Under the pieces are notes generated by a model that ran no database searches, had not been told where the DNA came from, and saw only the letters and a program-made list of their open reading frames with translations. A program made the position numbers and the translations under genes. DNA of 55,604 nucleotides, taken from contig VGSJ01000012.1 of NCBI GenBank assembly GCA_016875015.1, positions 1 to 55,604 on the forward strand, in the 5' to 3' direction. The stretch is from Deltaproteobacteria bacterium (GTDB lineage Bacteria > Desulfobacterota > Desulfobaccia > Desulfobaccales > 0-14-0-80-60-11). Positions 23,782-34,429 of this stretch are shown one piece after another (positions within the stretch are counted from its first letter, which is position 1; each line of letters begins with the position of its first letter).

Positions 23782-24105
23782 TCATAAATACCGCTTTCGA
23801 ACGTAACGGTGGAAGATAGAATAAGGCCAATCCGCAACCCTCGTCACGTGACCGTGCTTTACCGGATTGTCGTGGAGGTAATCAACGTGACGCTCATAGT
23901 CACCCTCGTGGCGGATGACGTGTTCCCAAAAACGTCGCGGCCAAATGCCCCGCTCTCCCTTCTTCAGGCGCCAGGCGCCGCGCTGAAAGTCTCTCCCCTC
24001 TGGAAATTTGTGCGGCAAATCGGGCTGAAGGCGGGATGCGCTTCGCTTTCCCGCCCTACGGCGGCTTTTTATATTATCGGAGTTAGCCGACAGCTCATGC
24101 GCCAA
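23782..24105 (-). pseudogene. REP-associated tyrosine transposase (RAYT) remnant
   Basis: The 107-codon frame carries the C-terminal third of a RAYT/TnpA_REP protein: GIWPRRFWEHVIRHEGDYER, HVDYLHDNPVKHGHV and DWPYSIFHRYV. The Tyr in DYLHDNPVKHG corresponds to the catalytic Tyr. The N-terminal half with the HUH metal-binding motif is absent, and in its place the frame runs through a REP copy (24028-24061). It is therefore a non-autonomous relic. Intact RAYTs copy or move REP palindromes next to which they lie, so the position between inverted REPs is typical. Confidence 0.8.
24028..24061 (-). repeat. 34-bp REP, copy 2 (inverted)
   Basis: This is the exact reverse complement of 23694-23727. 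It overlaps the 5' end of the RAYT relic's frame. Confidence 0.8.
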
Positions 24106-24168: not shown

Positions 24169-24197
24169 TTGCACCCATGCCGGCAGAGGGTTATAAT
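24169..24197 (+). promoter_or_regulatory. Promoter of the clpX-like/ahbC unit
   Basis: TTGCAC (24169-24174), a 17-bp spacer and a perfect TATAAT (24192-24197) lie 35 bp upstream of the first start codon. Confidence 0.65.
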
Positions 24198-24231: not shown

Positions 24232-26010
24232 ATGCAGCCAGCCAAAACCATCAAGACCATGGAAAAAATCCCCGACCCCAAGGAACTGGAAAAAGAACTG
24301 AGTGATTACCTCACCAAAAAATATGGCAGCCGGATTAAAGTAATGGCGCCGCATTGGGTGGCCAAACCGGAGAAAGACGACGAAGGTCCAGGCAAGGGCG
24401 CCAAACTCGGCCGGATTAAATTTGACTTGAAACCGGAGGAGTTGGAAGCATACCTGCATGAGTACGTGATCAAGCAGGACTTGGCCAAGAGCGTCCTGGC
24501 CACCAAGGTCTGCACCCATTTCAACCGGATCCGTCGTTCCCTGGAGTTAGGCAGAGACCCGGAACCCGGGGTGGGGTCCATTAAAAACAACATCATCCTG
24601 ATCGGCCCCACCGGCGTGGGCAAGACCTACCTGGTCAAACTCATTGCCAAGAAGATCGGGGTGCCGTTCATCAAGGGCGATGCCACCAAATTCAGCGAAA
24701 CCGGCTACGTGGGCGGTGACGTGGAAGACCTGGTCCGGGACCTGGTTTACGCCGCCGGCGACGACGTGGAACTGGCCCAATACGGCATCATCTATATCGA
24801 CGAAATCGACAAGATCGCATCCTCCGGGCACGCCTGGGGGGGACCCGACGTGTCGCGCACCGGGGTCCAGCGGGCGTTGCTGAAGCCCATGGAAGAGACG
24901 GAGGTGGACCTGAAGGTGGCCCATGACCCGGTCTCCCAGATTCAGGCCATCGAGCACTACCGCCGCACCGGCAAAAAGGATAAACGCACCCTCAATACCC
25001 GGCACATCCTGTTCATCGTCAGCGGCGCCTTTAACGGCCTGGACAAGATGGTCAAGGAGCGCATCAGCAAGCAGGAGATCGGCTTCCGGGGTGACATGAC
25101 CTCCCGGGAGTTGGACCGGACTTTTCTCAAGCACGTGACCGCAGAAGACCTGATCAAGTACGGGTTTGAATCGGAATTCGTGGGCCGCCTGCCGGTGATC
25201 GCGGTGCTTTCGGAACTCACGGGCGATGACCTCTTGGCGATCCTGCAGAACCCCAACAACCCCATCATCACCAGCAAAAAGCGGGATTTCGGAGCTTACG
25301 GCATAGACATTACCTTTGAGGGCGAAGCCCTGAAGATGTTGGCGGCCCAGGCCGCCATCGAGAAAACCGGGGCCCGGGGCCTGGTGAGCGTCATCGAACG
25401 GGTGCTCATTCAGTTCGAAAAGCGGCTGCCCTCCACCCAGGTCAAGCATGTGGTGGTCACGCCGGAACTTGTGGAGCACCCTGAAGAGGAACTGGCGCGC
25501 CTGCTGACTGACCCCGAGGACCCCCATCGCCTGGCGAGATTCAGCCAGGCGGCCGTTAAGGAGCGGGAGATCCTGAAAGAGTCCATCAGGCGCCGGGAAC
25601 CGGAGTTGCTCAACCGTTACCGTCTGCCTCTCACCGAGGCCAGGGTGGAATTGCTGGCCGGCCGGTACCATCACTGGGACTGTGACTTGAAAACCGCGCT
25701 GGAAGATCTGGCCCGGCTCTATGACCAGGTGGGCCGTTTCGCAGAAAAGTTTCTGAACAACCACGGGATCGAACTGCATTTTGAACCGGACGCCGTGGAT
25801 GAAATTCTCCAGCAGGCCGTGGCCCGGGACACCTCCGCCCTGGCCGTCTGCCAGGAGATGGCCAAGGACCTGGAATACGCCCTGAAACTGGTCCGGGACC
25901 GGACTTCCCAGGACCAGTTCATCCTGACCCGGGAGGCCATCCGCGACCTGGATACCTATCTTAACCGGGTCATTCGGGAATATTACCAGACCACCCTTTT
26001 CAGGGAGTAG
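24232..26010 (+). CDS. ClpX-like AAA+ unfoldase without zinc domain, with duplicated small domain
   Basis: The 592-aa protein has a full ClpX-type AAA+ module: Walker A GPTGVGKT (125-132), pore loop GYVG (158-161), Walker B IIYIDEID (186-193), Arg finger in FVGRLPV (316-322) and sensor 2 TGARGL (379-384). IGF at 283-285 matches the ClpP-docking tripeptide of ClpX. The N-terminal zinc-binding domain is absent. The C-terminus is about 170 aa longer than ClpX; residues about 512-580 (FEPDAVDEILQQAV...) repeat the layout of the first small domain (FEGEALKMLAAQAA...). It precedes ahbC by 7 bp under one promoter. Confidence 0.88.
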   Translation: MQPAKTIKTMEKIPDPKELEKELSDYLTKKYGSRIKVMAPHWVAKPEKDDEGPGKGAKLGRIKFDLKPEELEAYLHEYVIKQDLAKSVLATKVCTHFNRIRRSLELGRDPEPGVGSIKNNIILIGPTGVGKTYLVKLIAKKIGVPFIKGDATKFSETGYVGGDVEDLVRDLVYAAGDDVELAQYGIIYIDEIDKIASSGHAWGGPDVSRTGVQRALLKPMEETEVDLKVAHDPVSQIQAIEHYRRTGKKDKRTLNTRHILFIVSGAFNGLDKMVKERISKQEIGFRGDMTSRELDRTFLKHVTAEDLIKYGFESEFVGRLPVIAVLSELTGDDLLAILQNPNNPIITSKKRDFGAYGIDITFEGEALKMLAAQAAIEKTGARGLVSVIERVLIQFEKRLPSTQVKHVVVTPELVEHPEEELARLLTDPEDPHRLARFSQAAVKEREILKESIRRREPELLNRYRLPLTEARVELLAGRYHHWDCDLKTALEDLARLYDQVGRFAEKFLNNHGIELHFEPDAVDEILQQAVARDTSALAVCQEMAKDLEYALKLVRDRTSQDQFILTREAIRDLDTYLNRVIREYYQTTLFRE

Positions 26011-26017
26011 GCCTCCC

Positions 26018-27199
26018 ATGATCGGAGTTTCCAAACTTTATTGCGGCGCGGTGGAAGCCGGAGATGTGCTGCGTTACCGGGACCGCCGGGCCCAGGACCT
26101 GCCTTCGCACCTCCTCCAGTTCTCGGCGGACAAAAAGCCGGTGGTGGTCTGGAACGTCACCAGGCAGTGCAACCTCAAGTGCCTCCACTGTTACGCCAAG
26201 GCCACCGCGGGCGCGGCGCCGGACGAACTGGGGCGCGCCGAAGGCCTGGCCCTGCTCCGGGACCTGAAGGATTTTGGCGTGCCGGTGGTGTTGTTTTCCG
26301 GGGGGGAGCCCCTGATGCGGCCTGACCTCCCGGAACTGGTGGCGTTTACCGTGACCCAGGGCATGCGCGCGGTGATCTCCACCAACGGCGCCCTCATCGA
26401 CCGGGAGAAGGCCCGCCAATTGCGCGACCTGGGTCTGTCTTACGTGGGCATCAGCCTGGACGGCCTTGCTGCCACCCACGACCGGTTCCGGGGGGCCCCC
26501 GGGGCCTTTGCCGCGGCCATGGCCGGGGTGCGCCACTGCCAGGAGATGGGCCTGAAGGTGGGCCTGCGCTTCACGGTGAGCCGGCTCAATTATCAAGAGG
26601 TGCCGGCCATGTTCGACCTAGTGGAAAAACATGACATTCCCCGCATCTGCTTCTACCACCTGGTCTATGCCGGCCGGGGCAGCAAGCTGGTGGAAGAGGC
26701 GTTGACGCACGGGCAGACCCGGGCCCTGGTGGACCTGATCTGCGCCCGCACCCGGCGCCTCTTTGACGCCGGCAAAAGCGTGGAAGTGCTGACGGTGGAC
26801 AACCACGCTGACGGCCCCTACATCTACCTCAAGCTGCTCCAGCAAGATCCCCGCCGGGCCGCGGAAGTGCTGGAGCTCCTGAAGATGAACGAAGGCAACA
26901 GCTCGGGCCGGGGCATCGGCTGCGTCAGTTGGGACGGCCAGGTCCACGCCGACCAGTTCTGGCGGCACGAGGCCTTCGGCAACGTCCGGGAGCGCCCCTT
27001 CAGACAGATCTGGACGGATCTGTCCAACCCCCTCCTGGCCCGCCTCAAAGACAAGAAGCTCTACGTCACCGGTCGCTGCGCCGGGTGCAAGTGGCTGGAC
27101 GTCTGCGGCGGCAACTTCCGGGTGCGGGCCGAAGCTCTCACCGGGGACCTCTGGGCCCCGGACCCCGCCTGTTACCTCACCGACGCCGAGATTAGATGA
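26018..27199 (+). CDS. ahbC: AhbC, 12,18-didecarboxysiroheme deacetylase (radical SAM)
   Basis: The 393-aa enzyme removes two acetate side chains from didecarboxysiroheme to give Fe-coproporphyrin III in the siroheme-dependent heme pathway. The start MIGVSKLYCG, the radical-SAM cluster motif CNLKCLHCY (about residues 51-59), FSGGEPLMRPDLPEL and the C-terminal SPASM-like Cys set (GIGCVSWDG, CAGCKWLDVCGG, DPACYLTD) all fit AhbC closely. A second Fe-S cluster is expected from the latter. GGGAG lies just upstream of the ATG. AhbD and AhbAB are not in this window. Confidence 0.9.
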   Translation: MIGVSKLYCGAVEAGDVLRYRDRRAQDLPSHLLQFSADKKPVVVWNVTRQCNLKCLHCYAKATAGAAPDELGRAEGLALLRDLKDFGVPVVLFSGGEPLMRPDLPELVAFTVTQGMRAVISTNGALIDREKARQLRDLGLSYVGISLDGLAATHDRFRGAPGAFAAAMAGVRHCQEMGLKVGLRFTVSRLNYQEVPAMFDLVEKHDIPRICFYHLVYAGRGSKLVEEALTHGQTRALVDLICARTRRLFDAGKSVEVLTVDNHADGPYIYLKLLQQDPRRAAEVLELLKMNEGNSSGRGIGCVSWDGQVHADQFWRHEAFGNVRERPFRQIWTDLSNPLLARLKDKKLYVTGRCAGCKWLDVCGGNFRVRAEALTGDLWAPDPACYLTDAEIR

Positions 27200-30842: not shown

Positions 30843-31382
30843 CTACCACTCGATGCCGCGCCGGGCCTGCACTCCGGCCTCGTAGTAGTGTTTCAGGGGC
30901 CGCATTTCCGTGACCAGGTCCGCCAGTTCCACCAATTCCGGGGGGGCCTGGCGGCCCGTCAGGACCACCTCCACCCACGGGGGCCGGTCCCGCAGCACCT
31001 TAAACACCTCCTCGGCGGCCAGGAGGTTGAAGGTCAGGGCCAGGTTGATTTCATCCAGGATCACCAGGTCGTATTCGCCGGCCAGGATCACCTGCCGGGC
31101 CAGGCCCCAGGCCTCCCGGACCAGGGCCAGGTCTTCCGGGTCGGGGGCCCGGAGATTGACCAGCCCCGGGCGACCGAAGGAGCGCAGGGTCAGGTCCGGG
31201 GCCAGGCGTCCCGCCGCGGCTCGGGCCTCCCCGGTCTCCCGGCCCTTCATGAACTGCACCATGTACGCCTGAAGGCCTTGCCCCACGGCCCTGAGCGCCA
31301 ACCCCAGGGCGCAGGTGGTCTTGCCCTTGCCGTCCCCGGTGTACACCTGGATCAACCCCCGGCTCAATCGCGTCTCGGCCAT
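30843..31382 (-). CDS. cobO: Cob(I)alamin adenosyltransferase (CobO/BtuR type)
   Basis: The 179-aa protein has QVYTGDGKGKTTCALGLALR at residues 12-31, the P-loop of the CobA/CobO fold. MVQFMKG, YDLVILDEINLAL and EVVLTGRQAPPEL follow, all family marks. It transfers the adenosyl group of ATP to cobalt in corrinoids. It lies divergently from cobU. The start is the ATG at 31382 (MAETRLSRG). No cobalamin riboswitch is evident upstream. Confidence 0.93.
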   Translation of the reverse strand: MAETRLSRGLIQVYTGDGKGKTTCALGLALRAVGQGLQAYMVQFMKGRETGEARAAAGRLAPDLTLRSFGRPGLVNLRAPDPEDLALVREAWGLARQVILAGEYDLVILDEINLALTFNLLAAEEVFKVLRDRPPWVEVVLTGRQAPPELVELADLVTEMRPLKHYYEAGVQARRGIEW

Positions 31383-31459
31383 GACACATCCTTTTTCGGA
31401 AAAAGTATTTTGAGGGGAGGGCCGGATGCCGGGACGGTTCGCGCGCCGCCCCTACAACT

Positions 31460-31528
31460 CACTTCCCGGGCCAGGCTTTGCGCCTTTTCCTGGACCCCCT
31501 GCTGTTCCGGTGATAAAGTAAAATCCAT
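31460..31528 (-). pseudogene. 5' stub of an acyl-CoA dehydrogenase gene
   Basis: An ATG at 31528 with AAGGAG 7 nt upstream begins MDFTLSPEQQGVQEKAQSLA, then REV. This is the typical N-terminus of acyl-CoA dehydrogenases (MDF.LS.EQ..Q). After about 23 codons the resemblance stops and the frame enters TTGTAGGGGCGGCGCGCG, a repeat-like segment similar to 55351-55366. The rest of the roughly 380-codon gene is missing. The intact start site shows a recent deletion or replacement. Confidence 0.6.
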
Positions 31529-31847
31529 GCTGAACTCCTTGGGCCGGGAGTGATTTTTACGGCTATCATCCCAGATTTGCCGGGCCTGGTCAAGGCGCGC
31601 CTCGGCGCGCCGGACTTTTCCCCGGAAACCGTTATGGACCAGGCCGGGGTTGGCCGCCGCCCCCCCATTAATTTGGCGGCGCAACTTGGCACTTCGCGGC
31701 AATTTAGGATAAAATTTTCCTGTTAGGTACAAAGTCTAACGGATATGCTTTCGTGAAGAATTGAATCCTTGCCGCGGGCGTATTTTTGGGGGTTCTCCTG
31801 GCCCAGGAGATGGCGGCGCCGGCAAGGGGCGCCGGGAATTATCCAGC

Positions 31848-32411
31848 ATGGATAACGCACCGTCATATTTTCGGTTGGCCTTGGTTTTAGGAGGGGCGCG
31901 TAGCGGCAAAAGCCGCTACGGCCTGGGCCTGGCCGCCCGCTGCCCTGCTCCCCGCCTCTTTTTGGCCACCGGCGAACCCCGGGATGCCGAGATGGAGGCC
32001 CGCATCGAAGCCCACCAGAGGGAACGGGGCTCGGATTGGGCGACCCGGGAGGTCCCCCTGGAACTGGCGGCCGCCCTGAACGACGCCCAGGACCATTACG
32101 GGGTCATCGTGGTGGACTGCCTCACCATGTGGGTGTCCAATCTCTTGCTGAGGGAGGGCGCCTCCCAAGGCAGCATCCAGACAGCCTGCGAGCACCTGCT
32201 GGAGACCCTGGCCAAGACCGCCGCCCCCGTCGTCCTGATCAGCAATGAGGTGGGCTGGGGGATTGTGCCGGACAATCCCCTGGCCCGGAAGTTTCGGGAT
32301 CAGGCCGGCTGGCTGCACCAGCGCCTGGCGCAGGTGGCGGACCTGGTGGTCCTGGTGGTGGCGGGGGTCCCGATGCTCATCAAGAGCGATTTTTTCCCGA
32401 CCCGGCCGTGA
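31848..32411 (+). CDS. cobU: Adenosylcobinamide kinase/guanylyltransferase
   Basis: The 187-aa protein carries LVLGGARSGKSRYG (P-loop, residues about 13-26) and ARIEAHQRERGSDW, with the His that is guanylylated. VVDCLTMWVSNLLL and ISNEVGWGIVPDNPLARKFRD follow, all signatures of CobU. It phosphorylates adenosylcobinamide and converts it to the GDP form. The ATG at 31848 is chosen by alignment; only a weak GGGAA precedes it. cobT and cobS follow on the same strand after a repeat-filled gap. Confidence 0.93.
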   Translation: MDNAPSYFRLALVLGGARSGKSRYGLGLAARCPAPRLFLATGEPRDAEMEARIEAHQRERGSDWATREVPLELAAALNDAQDHYGVIVVDCLTMWVSNLLLREGASQGSIQTACEHLLETLAKTAAPVVLISNEVGWGIVPDNPLARKFRDQAGWLHQRLAQVADLVVLVVAGVPMLIKSDFFPTRP

Positions 32412-32444
32412 GCCAGTTTGTCGGGTTCAGGCTTTTCCTGGGAA

Positions 32445-32600
32445 AGGCATGGTGCGCGGTGCGTCTACACGCTGCAAAGTTCATAGTGGCGCCGGCATCT
32501 TGCCGGTGAGGCGCACAGGCTGGAAAGCCTGTGCCACCGATCCTTTCTCTGGTTTACGGGTGAGCCACAGGTTTATAAGGAACTGCTCACTGCTGATAGC
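32445..32600. repeat. Palindrome mosaic between cobU and cobT
   Basis: GGTGCGCGGTGCG, then TGGCGCCGGCATCTTGCCGGTGA (near 32489-32511), GCGCACAGGCTGGAAAGCCTGTGCC (near 32513-32537), TTTCTCTGGTTTACGGGTGAGCC, and GCTCACTGCTGA near 32584 are joined in a row. The order parallels 36503-36630. Confidence 0.7.
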
Positions 32601-32627
32601 TATTCTAGGAATTGAGGTCTTGTTGCC

Positions 32628-33689
32628 ATGATGACGGAATTGTCCCCGATAATTTCCCAGATCGAACCCCTCAACCCCGCCTGGCTGGACCAGGCCCGGG
32701 AGCGCCTGGATTCCCTTACCAAGCCCCGGGGCAGTTTGGGCCGCCTGGAGGAGCTGGCGACCCTCTATGTGGGCATCCGCGGGGAGGTGATGCCCGTCCT
32801 AGAGAAAAAATGGGTGGTGGTCTTCGCCGCGGATCACGGGGTGGTGGCCGAAGGGGTGAGCGCCTATCCCCAGGAAGTCACCTACCAGATGGTCCTCAAC
32901 TTTCTCCGGGGGGGCGCCGGCATCAATGCCTTGGCCCGGCACGCCGGGGCCCGGGTGGCGGTGGTGGATATCGGGGTCAACCACGATTTCGGCCACATCC
33001 CCGAACTCATAGACCGGAAGGTGGCCTACGGCTCCCGTAATATGGCCCAGGAACCGGCCCTAACCCGGGAGGAGGCCCTGCAGGCCCTCCTGGTGGGGGT
33101 CGAAATGGCCGAACAGGCCACCGCCACGGGGGTGGACGCCGTGGCGGCCGGGGACATGGGCATCGGCAACACCACTTCCGCCGCGGCCCTGGCTTCAGTC
33201 TTCACCGGCAAGCCGGTGGCGGCGGTTACCGGCCGGGGCACCGGCATCGAGGACCAGGTCTGGCGCCACAAGGTGGCGGTGATCAACCGGGCCCTGGGTC
33301 TGCACCGGCCGAGCCGCGAAGACCCCGTGGGGGCCCTGGCCGCGGTGGGCGGCCTGGAGATTGCCGGGATCGCCGGCTTTATCCTGGGAACCGCTGCGGC
33401 CCGGCGGCCCCTGGTGCTGGATGGTTTCATCGCCACCGCTGGGGCGCTGGTGGCCACGGCCCTGGCCCCCGCGGTGACCGATTACCTCATCGCCGCCCAC
33501 CGCTCGGCGGAGCCGGGGCACCAGGTCATGCTGGATTTCCTGGGCCTCAAGCCCCTGTTGAATTTTCAGATGCGCCTGGGAGAAGGCACCGGCGCCGCTT
33601 TGGGGTTGAGCCTGCTGGAAGCCGGCGTCAGGGTCTACCGGGAAATGGCCACCTTCGGGGAGGCCGGGGTGGCCGACCAGGAAGCATGA
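32628..33689 (+). CDS. cobT: Nicotinate-nucleotide-dimethylbenzimidazole phosphoribosyltransferase
   Basis: The 353-aa enzyme activates the lower-ligand base by making alpha-ribazole phosphate. KPRGSLGRLEELA (near 27), FAADHGVVAEGVSAYP, GDMGIGNTTSAAA and the C-terminal GEGTGAALGLSLLEA, holding the catalytic Glu, are all present. Length matches the family. Its stop overlaps the cobS start (ATGA at 33686-33689), so the two are translationally coupled. Confidence 0.95.
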   Translation: MMTELSPIISQIEPLNPAWLDQARERLDSLTKPRGSLGRLEELATLYVGIRGEVMPVLEKKWVVVFAADHGVVAEGVSAYPQEVTYQMVLNFLRGGAGINALARHAGARVAVVDIGVNHDFGHIPELIDRKVAYGSRNMAQEPALTREEALQALLVGVEMAEQATATGVDAVAAGDMGIGNTTSAAALASVFTGKPVAAVTGRGTGIEDQVWRHKVAVINRALGLHRPSREDPVGALAAVGGLEIAGIAGFILGTAAARRPLVLDGFIATAGALVATALAPAVTDYLIAAHRSAEPGHQVMLDFLGLKPLLNFQMRLGEGTGAALGLSLLEAGVRVYREMATFGEAGVADQEA

Positions 33690-34429
33690 ACTCCACCCTC
33701 CCCCTGGCCCTCACCTTTCTTACCAAGCTGCCCTGGCCCTGGCGAGGTCCGGCCGATGCGGCGGCCCTGGCCCGCTCCCTGTTTTGGTTTCCCTGGGTCG
33801 GGGCCGCCCTCGGCTTGATTTTCTGGGGGGCTTGGGCGGGCTTACAAAAAATCCTGCCGGACCCGGCGGCCGCGGCCCTGCTCCTCGCCCTGACGGTGTG
33901 GGTCACCGGCGGGCTTCACCTGGACGGCCTGGCCGACACCGCCGACGGCCTGGGCGGGGGCCGCACCCCGGCGGAGGCCCTCCGCATCATGAAGGACTCC
34001 CGGGTGGGCGCCTTCGGGGTCATCAGCCTCGTCCTGGGGCTTATCCTGAAATTTTCCCTGTTCCTCTCTCTATCCACCCAAACCCGCGGGGCCGAAGCCC
34101 TCATCCTCTTCCCGGTGGTCAGCCGCTGGGGCATGGTGCTCCTGGCCTATCTGTCGCCCTACGCCCGGCCGGAAGGGGGCCTGGGACAGGCCATGACCCT
34201 GGGGGTGAGCCCCGGGGTTCTCACCGGCGCCAGCCTCAGCGCCGGGGCCCTGTCCCTCCTGATCCTGGGCGCCCCGGGCCTGGTGCTCTTCGGCGGCGCC
34301 GCCGCCCTGGTCTGGCTGGGCAGCCTCTACTTTCAGCGCCGCTTAGGCGGCATCACCGGCGACGTCCTGGGCGCCACCAACGAAGTCCTGGAAGTCCTGG
34401 TCCTAGCCGGGGCTTTGATGCTGAGATAA
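33686..34429 (+). CDS. cobS: Cobalamin 5'-phosphate synthase
   Basis: The 247-aa integral membrane protein joins adenosylcobinamide-GDP and alpha-ribazole (phosphate), the last step of cobalamin assembly. FLTKLPWPW near the start, the metal-binding GGLHLDGLADTADGLGGG (near 73-90), then MKDSRVGAFG and the closing GDVLGATNEVLEVLVL are diagnostic. Several hydrophobic helices cover the rest. It overlaps cobT by four bases. Confidence 0.95.
   Translation: MNSTLPLALTFLTKLPWPWRGPADAAALARSLFWFPWVGAALGLIFWGAWAGLQKILPDPAAAALLLALTVWVTGGLHLDGLADTADGLGGGRTPAEALRIMKDSRVGAFGVISLVLGLILKFSLFLSLSTQTRGAEALILFPVVSRWGMVLLAYLSPYARPEGGLGQAMTLGVSPGVLTGASLSAGALSLLILGAPGLVLFGGAAALVWLGSLYFQRRLGGITGDVLGATNEVLEVLVLAGALMLR

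Follow-up and report, generated by a model that had tools for sequence, protein, structure and literature searches.

A paralog of clpX, here called clpX-L, heads a heme operon in a large branch of the Desulfobacterota, and the family of ClpX variants that it encodes is apparently undescribed. In the stretch of DNA analyzed here (the window, 55,604 nucleotides of the deltaproteobacterial contig VGSJ01000012.1) it directly precedes ahbC, a gene of siroheme-dependent heme synthesis, and this old and well-kept gene arrangement suggests that ClpX-L controls heme-making enzymes. Judging from the sequences, we lean towards the view that ClpX-L would be a ClpP-dependent unfoldase that its operon ties to heme synthesis and that probably controls or clears proteins of the heme pathway. 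The original prediction, made from the letters of the window, had noticed the gene pair and proposed a dedicated unfoldase for Fe-S/radical-SAM heme enzymes; our analysis confirms the observation, on stronger grounds than that first reading could have, but supports the proposed mechanism only in part.

The clpX-L/ahbC locus

Both open reading frames were confirmed at the positions first proposed for them (Table 1), on the same strand and with 7 bp between the stop of clpX-L and the start of ahbC; a ribosome-binding-like site for the latter (AGGGAG) overlaps the 3' end of the former. The true start of clpX-L is probably position 24259, giving a protein of 583 residues (MEKIPDPKELE...), since relatives begin there and the upstream ATG is unconserved. 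The single strong promoter that had been assigned to the pair stands in part: its -10 is perfect and the -35/-10 pair recurs at the corresponding position in most relatives within the family, but the element is absent from the list of a consensus scan, because its -35 matches at only three of six positions. We infer that clpX-L and ahbC are co-transcribed. Just upstream of the promoter, on the minus strand (window 23782-24105), lies a fragment that appears to resemble the C-terminus of a REP-associated tyrosine transposase. A few kb 3' of ahbC (window 30843-34429) there are cobalamin genes (a cob(I)yrinic acid adenosyltransferase, a cobU-type gene, cobT and cobS), another tetrapyrrole pathway near the locus and outside the conserved block discussed below.

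The identity of AhbC, which is full-length, is given by a score of 688.6 bits against TIGR04546 (cut-off 650), by a Pfam Radical_SAM match with the CxxxCxxC motif of radical-SAM enzymes (CNLKCLHC) and by a SPASM match just under its cut-off. The rest of the pathway is encoded elsewhere in the genome: the gene for an AhbD-like protein (498 bits against a cut-off of 500) lies beside ahbA on one contig (C16), and a second AhbA/B-like gene lies on another (C126). In this genome clpX-L is still with ahbC, and ahbD and ahbA are on a different contig.

Table 1. Positions in the window of the clpX-L/ahbC locus and of the parts of ClpX-L.
Feature	Position	Strand	Remarks
Promoter, TTGCAC-17 bp-TATAAT	24169-24197	+	perfect -10; weak -35
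clpX-L	24232-26010	+	592-aa ORF as annotated; ClpX paralog
Family-specific N-terminal helix, residues 14-32, PDPKELEKELSDYLTKKYG	24271-24327	+	replaces zinc domain
AAA+ large domain, residues 66-340	24427-25251	+	motifs fully or almost invariant among 86 homologs
Walker A	24604-24627	+	within AAA+ large domain
GYVG pore loop	24703-24714	+	within AAA+ large domain
Walker B	24787-24804	+	within AAA+ large domain, as is the arginine finger
Segment replacing RKH pore-entrance loop, residues 232-256, DPVSQIQAIEHYRRTGKKDKRTLNT	24925-24999	+	from alignments with ClpX and the family
IGF motif, residues 283-285, predicted ClpP docking	25078-25086	+	from family alignment
First small (lid) domain, residues 343-427, sensor-2 GAR	25258-25512	+	Pfam ClpB_D2-small; model
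Helical insert, residues 428-485	25513-25686	+	alignment; AlphaFold2 model
Second small domain, degenerate, lacking the sensor-2 Arg, residues 486-592	25687-26007	+	hhalign; AlphaFold2
ahbC	26018-27199	+	393-aa ORF; 12,18-didecarboxysiroheme deacetylase; radical SAM, CNLKCLHC, SPASM

Anatomy of ClpX-L

The best match of ClpX-L is ClpX, with 328.9 bits (cut-off 359) and 313.7 bits (cut-off 370.75) against the curated NCBIfam ClpX models (TIGR00382/NF003745), both scores being under the respective cut-offs; ClpX chains of the PDB match its residues 67-420 with E ~1e-69. On the tree, the ClpX-L family separates from canonical ClpX with a branch support of 100. The canonical ClpX of the same genome, to which ClpX-L is ~38% identical, is encoded beside clpP on a further contig (C7) and has the four-cysteine zinc domain and the RKH loop (GGRKHPQQEF); its IGF position reads MGF. 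A second ClpP that might partner ClpX-L was not found in the genome, which encodes one full-score ClpP. HslU is likewise a ClpX-related AAA+ ring, but ClpX-L is much closer to ClpX: the HslU model gives it 168 bits, far under the cut-off of 362, and the genome also encodes an HslU of its own. Scores and tree together rule out that ClpX-L is HslU, LonB or a phage protein.

With canonical ClpX it shares the AAA+ core, the small domain and the motifs of the motor. Walker A and B, the GYVG pore loop, the arginine finger and sensor-2 are intact throughout the family (86 homologs from three phyla), and the IGF position is occupied by I, L, M or V followed by GF in all 86, so that the intact ATPase, pore-loop and IGF motifs first read from a single protein are borne out across its homologs. 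The zinc domain, in contrast, is indeed missing, as had been claimed: the first cysteine of ClpX-L is residue 94. The helix that replaces it, which spans residues 16-31 in the AlphaFold2 model, is kept in Desulfobacterota and recognizable in most Verrucomicrobiota, with the consensus PDxKELEKELSDYLxKKYG. Also absent is the RKH loop, which binds the ssrA tag in ClpX; DPVSQIQAIEHYRRTGKKDKR stands in its place, and this replacing segment too is conserved in the family (DPxSQxQAIEHYRKTGKREKR).

A further difference from canonical ClpX is that ClpX-L has a helical insert and a second, degenerate small domain. The insert is present in the Desulfobacterota homologs and mostly absent from those of Verrucomicrobiota and Latescibacterota. 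For the second small domain, profile-profile comparison with hhalign aligned residues 343-427 with 484-592 at a probability of 98 and a score of 71.1, whereas none of 40 column shuffles scored above 17.0; the other parts of ClpX-L tested in this way scored low, except where they overlapped a small domain or the query itself. The order of helices and strands in the AlphaFold2 model is identical in the two copies. Modelled alone, the C-terminal part reached a mean pLDDT of 88.7 and its best 50 PDB matches were all ClpX chains, but with E-values of only 0.03 or above. The duplication suspected from the sequence is therefore upheld by profile comparison and structure prediction alike, and the C-terminal segment does match the ClpX small domain.

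Conservation of clpX-L with heme genes and with dnaJ

ClpX-L was found in 94 of 197 sampled Desulfobacterota genomes, about half, as well as in Verrucomicrobiota and in one Latescibacterota genome. Both ClpX-L and AhbC are encoded by 68 of the 197, ClpX-L only by 26, AhbC only by 31 and neither by 72, a co-occurrence for which a naive Fisher test, ignoring the relatedness of the genomes, gives p = 3e-9. Among the 68 genomes with both, ahbC lies downstream of clpX-L on the same strand and within 830 bp in 48, which come from 19 family-level groups; the gap is below 250 bp in 36 of these 48, and in some of the others a small gene lies between the two. Fuller operons comprise clpX-L, ahbC, hemB, ahbD and ahbA. 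AhbC, HemB, AhbD and AhbA have the same roles here as in the known siroheme-dependent heme operon; the difference is the presence of clpX-L as the front gene. The literature that we searched yielded no description of such a front gene, of the ClpX-L family or of its link to AhbC, and no paper treating ClpX together with AhbC. In the 31 genomes that have AhbC without ClpX-L, the order ahbC-hemB-ahbD-ahbA is often the same.

The association extends beyond ahbC, since clpX-L often precedes hemB in genomes without ahbC, and it remains with ahbC where hemB and ahbD depart. At at least seven loci in genomes without AhbC, clpX-L lies immediately 5' of hemB. When heme-clade loci from different families were compared in pairs, the same genes were found at positions +1 to +3 in 20-33% of pairs but at positions -1 to -3 in no more than 3%. 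Because the downstream genes are shared and the upstream genes are not, the heme arrangement is kept in place and is not residual general synteny; the block has been maintained in ~25 family-level groups amid this turnover of upstream genes. Chance adjacency and an assembly artefact are both ruled out by the 48 of 68 genomes in which ahbC comes next and by the unshared upstream genes. With the pair conserved across the Desulfobacterota and the C-terminal segment recognizable as a ClpX small domain, a genuine and old link between a ClpX paralog and the ahb operon is supported. At about eight of the Desulfobacterota loci collected, neither a heme gene nor dnaJ, the partner described next, adjoins clpX-L.

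Most of the other Desulfobacterota ClpX-L proteins form a sister clade on the tree, in which dnaJ is the next gene downstream, usually within 35 bp; its product has DnaJ and DnaJ_C domains, and no zinc-finger domain was found in it. Between-family pairs in this clade share the same +1 gene in 90% of cases. In one group of the clade, clpX-L and dnaJ are followed by a gene for a LonB-like protease; at least six loci have clpX-L, the zinc-finger-less dnaJ and the LonB-like gene in a row, and most members of one such family carry a deoxyhypusine-synthase-type gene upstream of clpX-L. On the tree the heme-linked genes group together, with 6 label changes in all as against 41.7 in shuffles, which argues that each context, heme or DnaJ, arose once or a few times. 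Since the heme arrangement arose about once, its spread would reflect retention and not repeated gain. The neighbors of the Verrucomicrobiota homologs are varied and unrelated, and AhbC, sought in the genomes of the Verrucomicrobiota loci collected, is missing from most of them.

Possible roles of ClpX-L

With its motor intact and an IGF-type motif in every homolog, ClpX-L is, in biochemical terms, most likely a ClpP-coupled unfoldase, and we infer from these motifs that it would have ATPase and ClpP activity. It would form a hexameric ring, driven by ATP, through whose pore proteins are threaded, with the IGF-type loops passing them on to the ClpP of the cell. The short helix in place of the zinc domain, the new segment in place of the RKH loop and the second small domain would alter the choice of substrates, and the differences at the N-terminus and the pore entrance imply that these are probably not those of canonical ClpX. 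ClpX-L would have come to head the heme operon about once, long ago, in a large branch of the Desulfobacterota, and would mostly have stayed there; most likely as a quality-control and turnover factor produced in coordination with the heme enzymes, it would target one or more heme-pathway proteins or their clients. That such proteins are among its substrates is our conjecture from how persistently it heads the operon. This reading as a whole is further supported by the homology to ClpX, by the separate canonical clpP-clpX pair of the same genome, with its one full-score ClpP, and by the proteostasis genes (dnaJ, lonB-like) to which the sister clade is linked.

Perhaps, however, ClpX-L is a general stress or quality-control unfoldase that merely supplies a promoter and first cistron, for the ahb genes here and for dnaJ elsewhere, an alternative that we regard as possible if somewhat doubtful. 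The dnaJ and lonB-like genes of the sister clade belong to proteostasis, as this alternative would have it, and the varied neighbors of the Verrucomicrobiota homologs, mostly without AhbC, agree with it. Moreover, no alignment column divides the heme-linked from the DnaJ-linked proteins at the 80% level, and sequence identity is the same between the two clades as among heme-clade members; with no residues diagnostic of either clade, nothing points to a specialization for heme enzymes, and co-transcription with the heme genes may only set expression. A similar protein, by description, is ClpX3 of Myxococcus xanthus (MXAN_2743), an extra ClpX copy that is needed at high temperature, its phenotype being heat sensitivity, and that is described as isolated in its genome (PMC11423568); compared with ClpX-L by description only, it likewise has neither N-domain nor RKH motif. 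Against a purely general role stand the retention of the heme block in so many family-level groups despite upstream turnover and the way in which clpX-L keeps hemB when ahbC is lost and ahbC when hemB and ahbD leave. Nevertheless, the dnaJ sister clade, the lack of heme-clade residues and the genomes with ClpX-L but no AhbC speak for broader quality control in which heme enzymes are at most included.

A more novel reading, for which we would argue only tentatively, is that ClpX-L is dedicated to the siroheme-dependent pathway as a controller coupled to it by the operon, acting on the amount or state of AhbC, HemB or AhbD, with a pseudo-receiver as its adaptor in several families. Between clpX-L and ahbC or hemB, eight heme-clade loci from seven family-level groups encode a stand-alone receiver-like protein of ~120 aa; it is degenerate, the phosphorylation Asp being replaced by Arg, Glu or another residue. 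By analogy with CpdR of Caulobacter, a single-domain response regulator that serves as a ClpXP adaptor (PMC8973945), it is a candidate adaptor for ClpX-L. A dedicated controller, if that is what ClpX-L is, would be an independent bacterial counterpart of the control of heme synthesis by mitochondrial ClpX.

That comparison is a loose one. Mitochondrial ClpX activates ALA synthase (ALAS), gripping its N-terminal extension (PMC7077987), and vertebrate CLPX mainly controls ALAS2 turnover while supporting FECH and PPOX (PMC8361296); on these precedents, ClpX-type proteins can activate heme enzymes and can also act on their turnover. What the mitochondrial case and that of ClpX-L have in common is a ClpX-type protein tied to heme synthesis. 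The case of ClpX-L differs in that it concerns the siroheme route and a separate ClpX lineage, with a link known from gene order alone; AhbC, unlike ALAS, has no N-terminal extension to be gripped, and the ClpP-docking motif is kept.

Two more specific mechanisms fare less well. A ClpP-independent remodelling chaperone, working with DnaJ-Hsp70 or a pseudo-receiver adaptor on several cofactor enzymes, would suit the dnaJ gene of the sister clade, the degenerate receiver at eight loci and the added second small domain, but we think it improbable, the conservation of an IGF-type loop in all homologs being unexpected if ClpP were unused. Least likely of all is that ClpX-L, along the lines of the dedicated unfoldase first proposed, activates AhbC (or AhbD) by a partial unfolding that admits the Fe-S cluster or the substrate: gene order and the mitochondrial ClpX-ALAS precedent would favor it, but against it stand the occurrence of ClpX-L without AhbC (26 of the 94 positive genomes) and of AhbC without ClpX-L (31 genomes), the DnaJ-linked sister clade, the comparison of ClpX-L-linked with unlinked AhbC, where no AhbC-specific degron, N-terminal handle or tail and no residue or column tracking the linkage was found, the ability of archaeal (Methanosarcina) AhbC to function in E. 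coli (PMC3942049), and the IGF-type motif of all homologs, which favors proteolysis over activation alone.

We thus retain, as the preferred reading, a ClpP-dependent unfoldase coupled to heme synthesis by its operon. To our knowledge, little is known of how the siroheme-based heme pathway is controlled in sulfate reducers and their relatives, and a ClpX paralog that heads the heme operon in some 25 family-level groups is a concrete candidate regulator. Heme aside, ClpX-L shows the structure of a model motor in altered form, with a second small domain and neither zinc domain nor RKH loop, and these changes make it a test case for the choice of substrates by ClpX. A ClpX-like protein occurs in phages as well: the PHROG family phrog_4339 (552 positions, function not annotated) matches ClpX-L with E 2e-67.
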